Shown one piece after another: positions 33,606-40,590 of a DNA stretch of 64,000 bases (positions within the stretch are counted from its first letter, which is position 1; each line of letters opens with the position of its first letter). Position numbers and translations under genes: made by a program. The notes under the pieces are model-generated. The model ran no database searches. It was given only the letters and a program-made list of their open reading frames with translations, and was not told the origin of the DNA. Source of the stretch: Mycolicibacterium gadium (GTDB taxonomy: Bacteria; Actinomycetota; Actinomycetes; Mycobacteriales; Mycobacteriaceae); the NCBI RefSeq assembly GCF_010728925.1, contig NZ_AP022608.1, forward strand, positions 1,426,001 to 1,490,000. Direction: 5' to 3'.

Positions 33606-34907
33606 CTACGCACCGGGTTCGGTGCGGTCCTGCCGAGACGCGTAGACATCGGGCACACCGTCAAGATCGTGGTCGGCGGTCTCCATTTCATGAATGCGCC
33701 GATACGCCGCGTTGCGGCTCAACAACACCGCGGATGCCAGTACACCTGCGACAACAGACCCGACCAGGACGCCGATCTTGACGTCGTCACCGGCCGGGGT
33801 GCCGTGCCCGAACGCCAGCTCGCCGATTAATAACGAAACTGTGAACCCGATCCCGGCCAACAGCGACACGCCGAGGACATCGCGCCAGGCGAGGTCGTCG
33901 TCGAGGTTCGCGCGGGTGAACTTGGCCAGCAGGAACGCGGTGCCCCACACGCCCAGCGGCTTGCCGATCACCAGCCCCGCGATGACCCCGTACGTGACGG
34001 GATGCGTCAGCGCCGACCCGAAGCCGGACCAGCCACCGACCGTGACACCGGCGGCGAAGAACGCGAACACGGGCACCGCGAAACCTGCGGAGACTGGACG
34101 CAGCCGATGCTCGAAGTCCTCGGCGGACGCATGGCGGCCCAGCACCGGCACGGTGAAGCCCAGCACCACGCCGGCGACGGTGGCGTGCACGCCGCTGGCA
34201 TGCACCAGCGCCCACGTCGCCACCGCGAGCGGGACCAGCAGCCACCAGTGCCGCATCCCGCGCTGGACGGCGAGGGCGAACAATCCGCCCGGCACCAGCG
34301 CCAGCGCCAGCGCCCCCGGCGAGAGGTGGTCGGTGTAGAAGAAGGCGATCACGATGATCGCCAACAGGTCGTCGACCACCGCCAAGGTGAGCAGGAAGGT
34401 GCGCAGCGCGCTCGGCAGGTGGGTCGACAGCACCGCCAGCACTGCGACCGCGAACGCGATGTCGGTGGCCGTCGGCACCGCCCACCCGACGACGTTCTCC
34501 GGGTGTCCGGCCGCCAGGTTGACGCCGATGAAGATCGCGGCGGGCACCGCCATGCCGCCGACGGCGGCGAGGATCGGCAGCGCGGCTCGGCTCGGGTCTC
34601 GCAGATCTCCGGCAACGAACTCGCGTTTGAGTTCCAACCCGACGACGAAGAAGAAAATCGCCAGTAATCCGTCGGCCGCCCAGGCGGACAAACTCAGCTG
34701 CAGGTGCAGCGATTCGGGCCCGAACGTGAATTCCGAAAGCGCGTCATAGCCCTGCGACCACGGCGAGTTCGCCCACACCAGCGCTGCGCCCGCCGCGAAC
34801 AGCAGCAGGACACCGCCGACAGTTTCCGTGCGAAGGATTTCGGCGAGCCGCTGAGTTTCGGGCCAGCTGCCCCGAGTCAGCAGACGCCGGCTCAGTCGAT
34901 TGATCAC
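33606..34907 (-). CDS. nhaA: Na+/H+ antiporter NhaA
   Basis: 433 residues from GTG at 34907 behind GGAGGAGG. About 12 membrane segments. The signature [20 protein letters not shown] and the ion-binding region [19 protein letters not shown] (paired Asp) are present. It exchanges Na+ or Li+ for H+. The leader carries the 17-nt element shared with both ABC operons of the neighbouring region. The gene is not part of the M. tuberculosis gene order here. Confidence 0.93.
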
Positions 34908-34920
34908 CCGGTGCCTCCTC

Positions 34921-34978
34921 CTGGTCGCGGTTCACCGACTGCCGACCAGACTTCCCGGCACACCTTGGGACAACCCTA
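34921..34978 (-). promoter_or_regulatory. leader of nhaA with shared 17-nt element
   Basis: Read on the minus strand: -10 box TAGGGT (34978-34973), 14 bases, element CCGGGAAGTCTGGTCGG (34958-34942), then CTGGTCG of the element can pair with CGACCAG at 34927-34921, just before the GGAGGAGG site. The alternative 4-bp stem GCCG/CGGC closes an 11-base loop. Start codon 34 bases beyond the element. Confidence 0.65.
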
Positions 34979-35035
34979 TGCCATGGCCCGATGCCCGGCG
35001 CGGCAACCAATCTGGTGTCCATGTGCAGGCGCGAG

Positions 35036-35089
35036 TACAGTCCTCGCCAGGTGCGCCGGGAAGTCTGGTCGGCTGTCAGTTGACCGACC
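35036..35089 (+). promoter_or_regulatory. leader of the 35102 ABC operon with shared 17-nt element
   Basis: -10 box TACAGT (35036-35041), 14 bases, element CCGGGAAGTCTGGTCGG (35056-35072). Its GGTCGG (35067-35072) can pair with CCGACC (35084-35089), directly upstream of the GGAAGG ribosome binding site. Start codon (GTG 35102) 29 bases beyond the element. Confidence 0.65.
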
Positions 35090-35101
35090 CTGGAAGGCCC
35101 G

Positions 35102-36022
35102 GTGTATGCCATGTCATCCGCGTCTGCGCGCGCCAAATCCGACGACGCCCTTCGAACCGAGGGACTGACCAAACGTTTCGGTTCAATCGTTGCGGTCGGC
35201 GACCTGAGTCTTGCCGTCTTGCCAGGGGAAGTCTTCGGCTTTCTCGGCCCGAACGGTGCAGGCAAATCCACCACGATCCGCCTGCTGCTCGGCCTGATCC
35301 GACCCACCGCAGGCACGGTGACGATCTTCGGTCACCCCGCCGACGATGTCCGTATCGCCCATCGGCACTTGGCGTACGTACCCGCCGATGTCGCGCTGTG
35401 GCCGACGATGACCGGCGCTGAGATCCTCGAGTTGAGCGCCAACATCGGTCCCGAGATCGACGCGGAGTACCGGGCGGAGCTCGTCCAGCGTTTCGCACTT
35501 GACTTGGATCAGAAGGGCAAGACCTACTCCAGCGGCAATCGGCAAAAGGTCGCGATCGTCGCCGCCTTTGCCACCCGGGCGCCGTTGTTGGTGCTTGACG
35601 AGCCGACCAGTGGCTTGGACCCGTTGATGGAGCGCGAATTTCGGCGTTGTGTCATCGAGGCCCGCGAGCGGGGCCAGACGGTGTTCCTCAGCTCTCATCA
35701 ATTGGCCGAAGTCGAGGCACTCTGCGACAGGGTGGCCATTCTGCGGAACGGGCGGCTCGTCGAGATCGACTCGATCGCAGAGTTGCGCCGACTGCGCCGA
35801 ACATTCATCGAAGTCACCTATCGCGATGCAGAACCGCAGTTGACAGGCGTGCCCAATGTGAGCAACCTCGAGCGACTTGACGGAAAGCGTCTGCGGTTCA
35901 ATGTGTCAGGGTCACCTGCATTGGCACTCCGCGCGCTTGCCGCGGTCGACATCACGGCCATCGCGATGCACGAACCGACGCTCGAAGAAATCTTCCTGGA
36001 CTACTACGGGAAGACATCGTGA
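35102..36022 (+). CDS. ABC exporter ATP-binding subunit
   Basis: 306 residues from GTG at 35102 (best spacing to GGAAGG; an ATG at 35111 is possible). Walker A GPNGAGKST, the signature region YSSGNRQKVAI (degenerate LSGGQ), Walker B LLVLDEPTSGLDP and the H-loop LSSHQ. It belongs to the drug/tetronasin exporter class. The stop overlaps the permease start. Operon of two genes. Confidence 0.93.
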   Translation: MYAMSSASARAKSDDALRTEGLTKRFGSIVAVGDLSLAVLPGEVFGFLGPNGAGKSTTIRLLLGLIRPTAGTVTIFGHPADDVRIAHRHLAYVPADVALWPTMTGAEILELSANIGPEIDAEYRAELVQRFALDLDQKGKTYSSGNRQKVAIVAAFATRAPLLVLDEPTSGLDPLMEREFRRCVIEARERGQTVFLSSHQLAEVEALCDRVAILRNGRLVEIDSIAELRRLRRTFIEVTYRDAEPQLTGVPNVSNLERLDGKRLRFNVSGSPALALRALAAVDITAIAMHEPTLEEIFLDYYGKTS

Positions 36023-37650
36023 TGACCACGACCCTTGCCGTCCGCCGTGCCCGCATTCACCGCGCGCCGGCCGGCCGAGCGATCATTGGCCTCGCCATCC
36101 GACAGGTGCGGCGCGGCACACTGCTGGTGGGCGGTGTCTGCGCGGGAATGTCCGCCGTGGTGGCCATCCAATATCAGACCACGTTTTCGAGCGAGATCAA
36201 TGAAGGCGCACTGCGCGCGTTGGCGGAAAACCCAGCCATACGAGTGCTTTTCGGAACTCCTCTGGCGCTGGATGATCCGGGAGGGTTCACAGTGTGGCGC
36301 ACCGGCACACCGGTGCTCATGCTGGCCGGCGTGTGGATCATGCTGACCGCTGTCCGGGTTACGCGGGGCGAGGAGGATACCGGGCGCTGGGATCTGTTGC
36401 TGTCCGGGCGAATTCGCAGAGCAGACGTCCTCTTGCGCTACCAACTGGTTCTGGCCGGCGCAGCGTTGACGATCGCCTGCGGAGTCGGCGTCGGAATGGC
36501 CGTCGCGGGCACGGACGCCCACGGCGCAATCATCTACGCCGCCGCATTGTTCGGTGCGACGATGACGTTCGCCGGGCTCGGGTTTCTGTCGGGGCAGATG
36601 ATGCCGAGCAGGTCTTCGGCCGCCGGCCTCGCCGCAGGCCTTCTGGGATCAGCTCTGTTGGTACGGATGCTCGCCGATGGAGTATCGACTCTGGCATGGT
36701 CGGCATGGATCAGCCCGCTGGGTCTCATCGCTCGGGCGGCGCCATATGCCGAGAACCGAATCGCTCCGCTGTTGGTGCTGGCGGGCTATGCGGTCGTGCT
36801 GATGGTGGGCGCAGTCGCGGCCGCGTGTCACCGCGATCTCGGCGCCGGGCTGGTTACTGTCTCGGCGCAACGTTCGGGGCGCGTGGGCCTACTCGGGTCG
36901 TTGACGGGTTTCGCAGCGCGCCGCGCCCTGCGTCCCACGGCCGGGTGGGCCGCGGCGATAGGCACTTACTTCGTGATCGTCGGAGCGTTGATCGCCTCGA
37001 TGCTCGACTTCTTCGAAGCGAATCCGCGGTTCGCTGAATTAGCCGCGGCGGCGGGTTTCGCGGGCCTGAACACGGCGGAGGGTTTTGTCGCCGCATTGTT
37101 CAGCCTGATGACGATCGCGACGGGGTTGTTCGCGGTGGCGCGGCTTGCGGCCTTCGTCAATCACGAGACAGCACGGCTGTGGACCATGTCGTTTGCCTCG
37201 CCGTGCTCTCGTGAACGCTTGCTGGGCACTGAGATAGCAGTTACCGCAGTTGGATTGGCGTTGTTGCACCTCGTCGCAGCAGCGGCCGTATGGAGTGGGG
37301 CTGCGCTCACCGGCGCCCCACTGCGGATCGGCGATGCACTGGCAGGCGCCCTCAACACCGCCCCCGTTGCGTGGCTGGCACTCGGCGCGGCGGCCCTAGC
37401 CGTCGGCTGGCTCCCGTCGGCGGTGGGCGCCGTGGGTGCGCTGCCTGTGGTCGGGGGGTTTCTGCTCAACGTCATCGCCGAAAGCATGCGGGCTCCGGCG
37501 TGGGTGCTGAACATCTCGCCGTATGTGCATATCGCGGCGGTGCCGTCGGCTTCACCCGAGGTTCTGGCCACGATCACGTTCCTGGTTGTCGGAGGAGCGC
37601 TTACGGCAGTGGGAATCGCGGGCTACCGCCGGCGCGATTTGACCTCCTGA
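36019..37650 (+). CDS. ABC exporter permease, tetronasin/TnrB-like
   Basis: 543 residues, starting at GTG 36019 or ATG 36022. About 12 predicted membrane helices in two halves, with a loop near residue 110-135 (VRVTRGEEDTGRWDLLLSGR), the coupling segment of this family. Pairs with the ATPase just upstream to export an unknown hydrophobic compound or antibiotic. Confidence 0.85.
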   Translation: MMTTTLAVRRARIHRAPAGRAIIGLAIRQVRRGTLLVGGVCAGMSAVVAIQYQTTFSSEINEGALRALAENPAIRVLFGTPLALDDPGGFTVWRTGTPVLMLAGVWIMLTAVRVTRGEEDTGRWDLLLSGRIRRADVLLRYQLVLAGAALTIACGVGVGMAVAGTDAHGAIIYAAALFGATMTFAGLGFLSGQMMPSRSSAAGLAAGLLGSALLVRMLADGVSTLAWSAWISPLGLIARAAPYAENRIAPLLVLAGYAVVLMVGAVAAACHRDLGAGLVTVSAQRSGRVGLLGSLTGFAARRALRPTAGWAAAIGTYFVIVGALIASMLDFFEANPRFAELAAAAGFAGLNTAEGFVAALFSLMTIATGLFAVARLAAFVNHETARLWTMSFASPCSRERLLGTEIAVTAVGLALLHLVAAAAVWSGAALTGAPLRIGDALAGALNTAPVAWLALGAAALAVGWLPSAVGAVGALPVVGGFLLNVIAESMRAPAWVLNISPYVHIAAVPSASPEVLATITFLVVGGALTAVGIAGYRRRDLTS

Positions 37651-37671
37651 GTTGGCATTCGCATCTCGTCA

Positions 37672-38415
37672 TCAGGTGTTCTTGGCGACGAATCGTCGGA
37701 AAAGTGGCCACGCGATGGCCACGTTGTAGATCACGCCGGCCAGCACGTACGGCCACCAGGTTCCATGCGCACTGGCCACCCAGAACGCTTTGGCCGCCCA
37801 ATACGGCGGGAGCACGCCGAATGCCAGGTTCCACGCAGAGTCGATGAACCACGGCAGACACGGCAATCCGGCGATGAGCATGCCGAGGGCGCGAACCATG
37901 GCGATGCCTTGGATCTTGTTGCCCGCGACGGCCACGATCACCAACAGTGTGACGACCGCTGACAATCCGGCGAGCAGGCCGATCGGTATCAGGATTGGGA
38001 TCAGTCCGGGTTGGAGTATCCCGCTGAGCGACATCGTCGCCACCACGTAGACAGTCGTCACCACCATCACCGTGCCGGCACGGTAGGTGAAGTACGTCGA
38101 CAGCGGCACCGGCGTCACTCGCAGCGCGCTCATCGTGCCTGCGTCGACCTCATCGAGAACGAGGAATGCCCCGAGTCCCCCGGCGATGATGATGCTTGTC
38201 AGCAGTAAGAAGGCGGTGAGAACGAGCGGATAGTACGGAACCAGATCGAAGTCGTACCTAGCCGCGAGCATGTCGGTGAACAACGGGACGAGTATGACGA
38301 CTCCGACCGTCCAGATGACGGGCGCCAAAACGATCATGACCAGCAGCGGATCACGGTGGGTACCGCGAAAATCGTTGCGGCCGAAGGCTGCCAAAGCTTT
38401 GCGGGACGTCGTCAT
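37672..38415 (-). CDS. ABC-2 type permease, Rv2686c-like
   Basis: 247 residues with six membrane segments. The segment LVLDEVDAGTMSALRVTPVP is the conserved ABC-2 coupling helix region. Its ATG overlaps the stop of the second permease. Last gene of the ATPase-permease-permease operon that corresponds to Rv2688c-2686c of M. tuberculosis, which has been linked to fluoroquinolone efflux. Confidence 0.85.
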   Translation of the reverse strand: MTTSRKALAAFGRNDFRGTHRDPLLVMIVLAPVIWTVGVVILVPLFTDMLAARYDFDLVPYYPLVLTAFLLLTSIIIAGGLGAFLVLDEVDAGTMSALRVTPVPLSTYFTYRAGTVMVVTTVYVVATMSLSGILQPGLIPILIPIGLLAGLSAVVTLLVIVAVAGNKIQGIAMVRALGMLIAGLPCLPWFIDSAWNLAFGVLPPYWAAKAFWVASAHGTWWPYVLAGVIYNVAIAWPLFRRFVAKNT

Positions 38416-39128
38416 CACTCGCCCCCAGCCTTGGCGATCACGCAGCGGCCGAACAGCGCCTTGGCGCCCACGTACAGCACCGCCACGCTGACGACGGGAT
38501 ACAGCACCGCGTAGGTGAACTGCCACGCCGACAACGTCACCTGATCAAAGGCCTGGCCGAGCAGCAGCAGAGGTCCGAGAGTCGGAATCGCATAGAGCGC
38601 CGGGTTCTCCCACACCCCGGAGTAGTACAACGCCGGCAGTCCTGTCATCACTGCGAGTGGAACAGTCGCCGACATGAACCAATCGCTGACCGACGAAAAT
38701 GGCAGCGAGGTGATGAAACCGACGAGCAGGTTCAGCAGCGTGCCGAGCACCACGCCGGCCAGCAGTGGCAGCGGACGATAGGACAGTCCGTGCGCCACCG
38801 TCACAACCACGAACGCGACAAGAACCGAAACAAGCGATAGCACAGCGAGTTTGGCGCTCAGGTACTCCCAAAATCGTAAGGGCGTCGAAATGACGGCTCC
38901 GAGTGTGCGCTCCTGCTTCTCGAAGAACACTGAGCCGCCGATGAAGAAAAAACCGATGATCGCGATGTCGCCCAAGAGGACGTACGGCTCGACGATCAGC
39001 CGCAGGTCATATGACATAGGCAGCAGCACCGTCAGCCAGATGAGTCCGGAGAAGACCGCCGCATGCAGGAACTTCTGCCTGATCTGAAGTGTGACCTCGA
39101 GTCGCAGTGTGCTCAGCAACCGCGTCAC
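38415..39128 (-). CDS. ABC-2 type permease, Rv2687c-like
   Basis: 237 residues from a GTG that overlaps the ATPase stop. Six membrane helices; EKQERTLGAVISTPLRFWEY is the coupling region. It forms a heterodimeric pore with the next permease. The overlaps on both sides show strict translational coupling. Confidence 0.85.
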   Translation of the reverse strand: MTRLLSTLRLEVTLQIRQKFLHAAVFSGLIWLTVLLPMSYDLRLIVEPYVLLGDIAIIGFFFIGGSVFFEKQERTLGAVISTPLRFWEYLSAKLAVLSLVSVLVAFVVVTVAHGLSYRPLPLLAGVVLGTLLNLLVGFITSLPFSSVSDWFMSATVPLAVMTGLPALYYSGVWENPALYAIPTLGPLLLLGQAFDQVTLSAWQFTYAVLYPVVSVAVLYVGAKALFGRCVIAKAGGE

Positions 39129-40027
39129 GTCAGCTGCCTTCCGGTGGTTTCGACGAACACGTCGTCGAGCGTGGCCTCCTTGCTGTGAATGGTCTCCACC
39201 TCGCGCCCGCGTAGCAGGGCATGGAAGGCGGGATCGTCGGCCAGCCGATCCATATCGAAGTCGGCTGCCTCGAACGTGCCGTCGACTCCGCGATAGGTCA
39301 CCCGCACTTGTCGCTGGCTTCGGGCTACCTTGAGCTCGGTGGGCGTATCGAGAGCGACGATGCGCCCATCGACAATGAAAGCGACTCTGTCGCACAGCTC
39401 GTCGGCAGTCGACATGTCGTGAGTGGTGAGAAAAACGGTGCGCCCCCTGGCCTTGAGCGCCAGGATCATGTCCTTGACCTTACGTGCGTTCACGGGGTCC
39501 AGGCCCGATGTGGGCTCGTCGAGGAACAACAACTCGGGGTCGTTGAGTAGCGAACGCACAAACGTCAAACGCATCTGCATTCCTTTGGAGTACTTGCCGA
39601 CTCGGAGTTTCGCGTGTTCTGCCAACCCGACGGCATGCAATAGCTCCAAGGGGTCCAGCGTGTCGACGTCGTACAAGGACGCGAAAAACTTCAAATTCTC
39701 GAGCCCGGTGAGCTTCTGATAATGGTTCGGCAGCTCGAAGGACACGCCGATGCGCTGGTAGTAGTCGGGACCCCAGGCCCGCGGTTCCCTGCCCCAGACC
39801 GCAGCTTCACCCCCGTGGCCGCCGAGCAGCCCGATCAGAAGTTTTTGTGTCGTGGACTTACCCGCTCCGCTCGGACCCAGGAATCCGAAGATTTCTCCCC
39901 GCCCCACCGAGAAGTCGATCCCGCGGACCGCCGGCTCGGCGCTCTTCGGATAGGCGAAGGTCAGTCCGCGGACGCGAATGACCTCAGCTGTGGCACTGCA
40001 TGCGGCGGTCGGCGGGCTGGTCTGCAT
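39125..40027 (-). CDS. ABC exporter ATP-binding subunit, Rv2688c-like
   Basis: 300 residues from the ATG at 40027, preceded by AAAGGGAG. Walker A GPSGAGKSTT, signature YSKGMQMRL, Walker B LLFLDEPTSGLDP, H-loop LTTHD. The leader holds the shared 17-nt element, and its promoter overlaps that of the divergent MarR gene. Confidence 0.93.
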   Translation of the reverse strand: MQTSPPTAACSATAEVIRVRGLTFAYPKSAEPAVRGIDFSVGRGEIFGFLGPSGAGKSTTQKLLIGLLGGHGGEAAVWGREPRAWGPDYYQRIGVSFELPNHYQKLTGLENLKFFASLYDVDTLDPLELLHAVGLAEHAKLRVGKYSKGMQMRLTFVRSLLNDPELLFLDEPTSGLDPVNARKVKDMILALKARGRTVFLTTHDMSTADELCDRVAFIVDGRIVALDTPTELKVARSQRQVRVTYRGVDGTFEAADFDMDRLADDPAFHALLRGREVETIHSKEATLDDVFVETTGRQLT

Positions 40028-40029
40028 CG

Positions 40030-40097
40030 GGTCGCTCCCTTTCACGCACGGATATGAAACTTCCGACCAGACTTCCCGGAGCGCCGCCATCACTATA
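40030..40097 (-). promoter_or_regulatory. leader of the Rv2688c-like operon with shared 17-nt element
   Basis: Minus strand: -10 box TATAGT (40097-40092), 12 bases, element CCGGGAAGTCTGGTCGG (40079-40063). GGTCG of the element (40068-40064) can pair with CGACC at 40034-40030, between the ribosome binding site and the ATG. The outer stem pair is T-A here instead of G-C, a compensatory change. Confidence 0.65.
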
Positions 40098-40137: not shown

Positions 40138-40590
40138 GTGTCCAGCCCCGCTGACCTGCAGAGGGCAGCCGAAGAGCTTGCCCTCGTGTTGACGAATCAC
40201 GGGCTGCAGCGGATGACGGCGAGGGTTCTTGCGACGCTGCTGTTCACCGAACAACCGAGCTTGACCATGAGTGAACTCGCTGAACAGCTACGCGCGAGCA
40301 ATGGCGCGATCTCCACCGCGATCAAGATGTTGAGCTCGGTGGGTCTGGTCGAGCGACAACCGGCGCCGGGCAGCCGCCGCGAACATTACCGCCTGCGTGA
40401 CGACGCATGGACCGTGCTGTACACCAACCAGAACGCCGTACTCGCGGCGATGAGAAGTGCCGCCGAGGCGGGAATCGAGGCGACGGCGGCGGACAGTCTC
40501 GCCGGCCGACGCCTGGCCGAGATGCGTGACTTCTACGACTTCTTGCTCGCCGAGATTCCGGCCCTGCTGGAACGGTGGCGTGCAAAGTAG
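40138..40590 (+). CDS. MarR/GbsR-type winged-helix regulator
   Basis: 150 residues from GTG after GAGGAG. The winged helix is in LTMSELAEQLRASNGAISTA and VGLVERQPAPGSRREHYRL. Long flanking helices serve dimerisation. It is divergent from the exporter operon and has a palindrome over its own -10 box. Ligand unknown; drug or lipid sensing is typical. Confidence 0.88.
   Translation: MSSPADLQRAAEELALVLTNHGLQRMTARVLATLLFTEQPSLTMSELAEQLRASNGAISTAIKMLSSVGLVERQPAPGSRREHYRLRDDAWTVLYTNQNAVLAAMRSAAEAGIEATAADSLAGRRLAEMRDFYDFLLAEIPALLERWRAK

Follow-up and report, generated by a model that had tools for sequence, protein, structure and literature searches.

In the 64,000 nt of Mycolicibacterium gadium DNA analyzed here (contig NZ_AP022608.1, positions 1,426,001-1,490,000; referred to below as the window), a conserved 24-nt element stands at the start of the putative leaders of nhaA, which encodes a Na+/H+ antiporter, and of two ABC transporter operons. 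This element is very probably a real cis-regulatory RNA and, with a slightly better than even chance, a new candidate riboswitch in which a hairpin would sense an ion or pH directly. An earlier note on this DNA had described a 17-nt repeat (CCGGGAAGTCTGGTCGG) at the 5' ends of the three transcripts and had interpreted it as a switch, a reading that is partly supported by the results below. The three copies are exact (34942-34958 and 40063-40079 on the minus strand, 35056-35072 on the plus strand) and the 5.96 Mb genome has no other exact copy; in a search of both of its strands, the next best three matches have two mismatches. When up to three mismatches were allowed, the window contained no matches other than these three (0.44 expected), and three copies occurred in none of 100 shuffles. 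As a conserved unit the 17-mer is correct but too short: six further bases at its 5' side (GGYGNG) belong to it, and the complete element spans 24 nt.

Over 307 distinct sites, which include one from Chloroflexota (L192) and do not list 39 of the named-genome loci, the consensus form is GGNGNGCCGGGAAGNCUGGUCGGC. Within the 17-mer only one base, located in the loop, varies freely (T in 245 sites, C in 50, A in six and G in six). An exact 15-mer core was found in 33 of 61 genomes (that of the window and its relatives), compared to none of the 61 for a reversed control pattern. A covariance model built from 32 sites (R1) matched 371 of 397 genomes of the order, representing 80 of 85 genera, at a lenient limit of E ≤ 1, at which some of the weakest matches are probably due to chance; it also matched 96 of 148 genomes of the class at E ≤ 0.01. 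A second model (R2) matched 59 of 198 genomes of the phylum Actinomycetota at E ≤ 0.05 (42 of these outside the class), 13 of 151 Chloroflexota genomes (one at chance level) and, at E ≤ 0.02, 21 of 47 genomes of one Chloroflexota class. A scan of named genomes returned at least 119 stretches, with Streptomyces, Arthrobacter, Micromonospora, Geodermatophilus and Amycolatopsis among the matches listed. Genomes carry from one to about 12 copies, and three genomes that were searched again have 11 or 12 each, partly in clusters. No exact match to the element was found in viral contigs, and a phage origin was dismissed on that basis. An upstream peptide (GTG-TGC-CGG-GAA..) was also rejected: its GTG is not conserved, with T at base -4 in 256 of the 307 sites, and the single freely varying core base would fall at a second codon position.

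The element is placed at a fixed distance from the promoter. In 218 of the 307 sites, compared to five at a control offset, the first C of the 17-mer lies 18-20 nt after the start of a TANNNT box. This fixed spacing would place the element at the 5' end of the transcript, which we infer to start on or adjoining the GG of GGNG, approximately 7 nt after the box. The three -10-like boxes and start codons that the earlier note had described were confirmed by reading the sequence: the distance from box to 17-mer is 14 nt for nhaA, 14 nt for the first ABC operon and 12 nt for the second (FLQE-type) operon, and the distance from 17-mer to start codon is 34, 29 and 35 nt, respectively. The proposed position at the mRNA 5' end is thus backed by the -10 spacing, while its more exact form, that the element lies within the first 25 nt, is deduced from the boxes themselves. 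Scans of positions 34880-35140 of the window detected no terminators and no strict sigma-70 promoters.

Covariation indicates that the element acts as an RNA with a conserved hairpin. In the three copies of the window a 4-bp stem closes an 11-nt loop, with an outer pair of G-C, G-C and T-A, as first described. An absence of covariation in homologues had been named as grounds for rejecting the proposed switch, but covariation was observed. Compensatory changes are present in three of the four stem pairs: G-C is replaced by A-U and U-A, a C-G pair by U-A and G-C (the latter based on one doubtful site, L388) and another C-G pair by U-A. The stem (GCCG/CGGC) is paired in 98.8% of cells over 85 distinct rows. 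Double-sided changes occupy 17 of 340 cells in this set, which includes the doubtful rows L386, L388 and L389, compared to 1.2 in shuffles; none of 500 shuffles reached 17, and sliding the stem partners reduced the count to seven or fewer. In the 53 rows available before the Chloroflexota were added, the same three pairs show such changes (seven cells, 0 of 500 shuffles). A selection of 403 sites from the fetched loci, in which the stem columns were left unscored, contains three with a broken stem pair. Immediately outside the stem, 214 of 277 non-redundant sites have a U.G or C.A pair (118 after shuffling) and 15 a Watson-Crick pair (109 after shuffling), and this column pair has the highest mutual information of any. 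As U.G and protonated C.A wobbles share the same geometry, a wobble seems to be preferred at this position. An alternative hairpin, GCCGG-GAAGU-CUGGU, was rejected because it shows no compensatory change. A conserved RNA structure in the 5' leader, as would be expected of a riboswitch, is found here on the evidence of covariation and of the leader position given by the -10 spacing.

In Chloroflexota, the 5' arm of the element itself (for example GGAGUGCCGGG) pairs over 7-11 bp with a later arm (for example CCCGGCACUCC) that runs into a T-rich stretch. Such a terminator-like stem was identified at 20 of 43 sites, or 15 of 37 non-redundant sites, compared to a mean of 1.2 and a maximum of four in 500 shuffles; these counts leave out L404, which is chance-like, and L391, which is an actinobacterial locus. 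The hairpin and the terminator-like stem have GCCGGG in common and are mutually exclusive for that reason, from which the likely polarity follows that the gene is on when the hairpin is formed. The hairpin should thus be an antiterminator in these leaders, and the predicted stem is the clearest expression platform of the element: at the 15 non-redundant sites it supplies what a riboswitch needs, a platform exclusive with the conserved fold. In one leader (L403), the terminator-like stem uses the 3' half of the element instead.

A different pairing is favored in Actinomycetota. The most enriched pentamer in the first set of leaders is CGACC (82 of 193 leaders, compared to 13.6 in shuffles), which is the exact complement of GGUCG in the element. 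Watson-Crick matches of at least 5 bp to the GGUCG stretch occur in 98-109 of 192 leaders (51-65 in dinucleotide shuffles), and CGACC stands between the element and the Shine-Dalgarno sequence in 83 of 206 leaders, compared to 12, four and three for three control words. Partition-function folding of 193 non-redundant leaders gave 0.83 for re-pairing of GGUCG, compared to 0.645 with dinucleotide-shuffled spacers (p = 2e-20), and 0.006 compared to 0.041 for the hairpin. In the window, CGACC is present in all three leaders, as had been claimed, and the 7-bp match of CTGGTCG to CGACCAG in the nhaA leader was confirmed; the leader of the first ABC operon has a more stable predicted fold than shuffled versions of it (z = -3.3). 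The hairpin and the GGUCG:CGACC pairing that the earlier note had set against each other are therefore backed by covariation in the first case and by enrichment and folding in the second. According to the folding models, the competing pairing is the favored state of Actinomycetota leaders, with no clear output.

Genes downstream of the element were assigned using tblastn at the 307 sites. NhaA accounts for 162 and CPA-type antiporters for 44 (36 through a query confirmed as PF00999 and eight through a second query without Pfam confirmation), or 206 together, followed by ABC ATPases (19) and CBS-domain proteins (12); 25 sites fall into smaller classes and 45 are unassigned. Pfam searches of representatives identified further transport domains (Proton_antipo_M, which is Mrp-like, TrkH, TrkA_N, Na_Ca_ex, Cation_efflux, H_PPase, Cation_ATPase and CitMHS) as well as DUF2254, NfeD, Band_7 and STAS. 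Also found were glycosyltransferase, LCM methyltransferase, P450, acyltransferase, SpoIIE, hydrolase, DUF998 and PPDK_N domains, and some representatives had no match. At the 43 Chloroflexota sites, the frames read include many PF00999 or NhaA antiporters, DUF2254 proteins and a few P450s, the remainder being other or unclear; Pfam confirmed six of these frames (PF00999 twice, and NhaA, DUF2254, P450 and a CitMHS transporter). Antiporters and other cation transporters thus dominate downstream of the element, and the predicted placement before transporters in homologues holds in two phyla. The NhaA of Streptomyces coelicolor, SCO3564, is reported to be involved in the alkaline stress response (PMC12892944).

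The element does not precede every nhaA gene. In one sample of the class, the element stands upstream of at least 30 of 56 near-full-length NhaA matches: 28 in the main tally, which leaves out seven partial NhaA rows, and two more in a further check. NhaA proteins in open frames of more than 600 aa mostly lack it (three with, 15 without), and among those without is the second NhaA of the window genome (G000:C1:4813999-4815192, a 653-aa open frame). A filters-off scan for a diverged element before 14 element-lacking NhaA loci gave a best match of 15.2 bits (E-value: 0.35), which is at chance level.

In the mechanism that we propose, the first ~24 nt of the mRNA, GGNG-N-(GCCG)-GGAAGNCUGGU-(CGGC)-N, would fold as a hairpin whose 11-nt loop hardly varies. 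In many Actinomycetota leaders, a later CGACC would re-pair GGUCG in competition with this hairpin, and in Chloroflexota a later arm would pair with GGNGNGCCGGG to make a U-tailed terminator-like stem. As long as the hairpin held, the terminator would be excluded and the gene would be on. In both phyla the element leads genes for cation/proton antiporters, and the signal is therefore likely to be an alkali cation (most likely Na+ or Li+) or a high internal pH, either of which would stabilize the nascent hairpin and switch on efflux. The earlier note had considered an ion, a drug or pH; the dominance of cation/proton antiporters favors an alkali ion or pH over a drug. In the window, nhaA and two ABC exporters would come under one signal.

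Several results weigh against this proposal. A 24-nt hairpin of 4-5 bp is small for an aptamer, and the invariance of the element is overstated because it was partly selected, most sites having been found through patterns and models derived from the consensus. Some of the genes that follow the element, a minority, have no obvious connection to ions. In Actinomycetota, 123 of the 206 leaders have no CGACC ahead of the Shine-Dalgarno sequence, terminator arms were found at none of the 306 sites of the non-Chloroflexota set (two in one shuffle), arms without a T tract are rarer than in a shuffle (47 compared to 80 at these 306 sites) and the nhaA and FLQE-type leaders of the window fold no better than shuffles (z = -0.5 and -0.3). 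Forcing the hairpin in the full leader costs approximately 10 kcal/mol, so that it would have to act during transcription. The suggestion that the two pairings simply open and close the Shine-Dalgarno sequence found no support in the folding models, as its predicted pairing moves in the wrong direction for unmasking, from 0.564 when the leader folds freely to 0.620 when the hairpin is forced, and exposure of the ribosome binding site is thus not explained. Given the absence of terminator arms at the 306 sites, and as such pairing is not enriched in Actinomycetota, a general rule that the 5' GGNGNG pairs with the leader was dismissed.

The main rival, which we regard as unlikely but as a serious contender, is that a regulatory protein binds the hairpin in the RNA, in the manner of LicT and its RAT sequence: this protein would sense an ion or stress and, by stabilizing the hairpin, would keep the terminator or the CGACC pairing from forming. 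RAT antiterminator hairpins, which are bound by LicT/BglG-type proteins, are ~30 nt in length, overlap the 5' arm of a terminator and exclude the terminator, and the hairpin described here resembles them in this overlap and exclusion. The shortness of the hairpin, its invariant loop and the overlap of its 5' arm with the terminator-like stem would all suit a protein site, and the one to about 12 copies per genome could share one protein. On the other hand, the genes downstream differ from those of RAT systems, and no cognate protein has been identified or is known here, although co-distributed proteins were not searched for. Such a protein would also be needed in both phyla, given that the same element stands before the same transporter families.

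A constitutive 5' stabilizer or translation enhancer that senses nothing would account for the fixed place at the inferred transcript start, but we consider it improbable: the near-invariant loop, the preference for antiporters and the mutually exclusive terminator-like stems of Chloroflexota point to regulation. Slightly less probable again is that the start site holds a DNA operator to which a transcription factor binds, with the GCCG and CGGC arms as half-sites. The fixed distance to the -10 box would be explained, and GCCG/CGGC is also a dyad in DNA with one freely variable base at its center. However, the two trinucleotides in the middle, GGA and GGT, are both invariant yet lack symmetry, the outward pair exchanges U.G for C.A instead of keeping Watson-Crick symmetry and the later arms in Chloroflexota are complementary to the element, so that conservation by base symmetry in DNA in place of RNA pairing was not what we observed. 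In addition, both versions of a stem pair coexist within single genomes (G472, G526 and that of the window), with which an operator is hardly compatible. The least credible alternative is that the element is the target of a conserved trans-acting small RNA. The length and near-invariance of a stretch shared by many mRNAs could be cited in its favor, but such targeting does not account for the compensatory changes inside the element, and apart from the three copies the M. gadium genome, searched on both strands, has nothing within one mismatch of the 17-mer to serve as the antisense (a short seed could still suffice).

If the element is instead a riboswitch, it would be remarkably small for a switch; we know of no natural aptamer as small as 24 nt. 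Our widest claim is a tentative one, to which we give less than even odds: that a 24-nt RNA fixed at the transcription start is a principal sensor of alkali ions or alkaline pH in Actinomycetota and part of the Chloroflexota, with terminator output in one phylum and another output in the other, heading a wide ion-homeostasis regulon. This regulon would consist of antiporters, Mrp, Trk, H+-pyrophosphatase, DUF2254 and NfeD, with exporters and modifying enzymes recruited in some genomes. Within the searches made, no known RNA answer was found to how Actinomycetota sense Na+ or alkaline stress, and a conserved RNA before antiporter genes would be a direct and testable one. The element also groups uncharacterized genes (DUF2254, NfeD partners and the FLQE-type ABC operon) with ion homeostasis.

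The earlier note knew of no matching RNA family, and permissive scans against all of Rfam likewise found no family match at the element. Matches to mir-584 and MIR7724 were dismissed as falling below the gathering scores and merely fitting the inverted pair of elements in the window. None of six element-bearing genomes has a Li+-I (nhaA-I, RF03057) or Li+-II (nhaA-II, RF03038) riboswitch above the cut-off: the best Li+-I match scored 24.5 bits against a cut-off of 37 and is not at the element, and one weak Li+-II match (24.5 bits against 70.4) lies elsewhere. The Na+-I (DUF1646) motif gave no match at the element in the whole-Rfam scans, although no dedicated search for this family was made and it was not confirmed by accession. 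Li+-I and Li+-II are described as leaders common before nhaA in which an alkali ion switches expression on (PMC9646797). The element is thus similar to them as an RNA leader at nhaA, but these models have 55 and 84 positions compared to 24 nt here. The Na+-I riboswitch is located before cation transporter genes and its sensor is reported to compete with a terminator stem (PMC9337991); the element, with its predicted terminator-like stems, resembles it in both respects. No description of the element was found in the open-licence literature, which lacks most subscription journals and preprints.

In some genomes (L323, L324 and L279-L281), elements are clustered a few kb apart before glycosyltransferase, methyltransferase, ABC and other genes in addition to antiporter genes; one idea is that these clusters constitute an ionophore response. 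In Actinomycetota and Chloroflexota alike, the element is followed by DUF2254 membrane proteins (assigned by Pfam for L375 and L423 and by eye for L377 and L380), which suggests a role for these proteins in ion or pH homeostasis.

Table 1. Coordinates of the elements, promoter boxes, re-pairing segments and genes in the window.
Feature	Position	Strand	Basis
24-nt element GGTGTGCCGGGAAGTCTGGTCGGC, nhaA leader	34941..34964	-	exact copy; R1 model match in own genome
24-nt element GGTGCGCCGGGAAGTCTGGTCGGC, first ABC operon leader	35050..35073	+	exact copy
24-nt element GGCGCTCCGGGAAGTCTGGTCGGA, FLQE-type ABC operon leader; outer stem pair T-A	40062..40085	-	exact 17-mer copy; pair change counted in covariation tests
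-10-like box TAGGGT, nhaA	34973..34978	-	read from sequence
-10-like box TACAGT, first ABC operon	35036..35041	+	read from sequence
-10-like box TATAGT, FLQE-type operon	40092..40097	-	read from sequence
CGACCAG, able to re-pair CTGGTCG of the nhaA element	34921..34927	-	read from sequence; within minimum-energy fold
CCGACC, able to re-pair GGTCGG of the first ABC element	35084..35089	+	read from sequence; within minimum-energy fold
CGACC between Shine-Dalgarno sequence and start, FLQE-type operon	40030..40034	-	read from sequence
nhaA, Na+/H+ antiporter	33606..34907	-	PF06965, E-value 9.5e-132; TIGR00773 above cut-off
ABC transporter ATPase, DrrA-like	35102..36022	+	PF00005; drrA is the top-scoring NCBIfam model but stays under its cut-off
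543-aa partner of the ABC ATPase, probably a permease (from position)	36019..37650	+	no Pfam or NCBIfam match
ABC ATPase, FLQE-type operon, start ATG 40027 (extends to 40093 in the list of open reading frames)	39125..40027	-	PF00005; start read from sequence
Open reading frame with FLQE3-type permease	38415..39395	-	PF24686, E-value 2.5e-108, residues 91-322
Third open reading frame of the FLQE-type operon	37672..38526	-	open reading frame; no Pfam match

The third element-bearing gene most likely starts at ATG 40027 and not at the listed GTG 40093, because the latter would be upstream of the element. In the frame that contains the FLQE3-type permease, the first ~90 listed residues are outside the PF24686 match and overlap the ATPase gene. 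The elements of nhaA and the first ABC operon form an inverted repeat (34941-35073) and face each other across a common divergent promoter region. A MarR-family gene (40138-40590) is divergent from the FLQE-type operon, and the TTCAG/CTGAA words between them are a possible MarR operator, so that this operon may have a second control.

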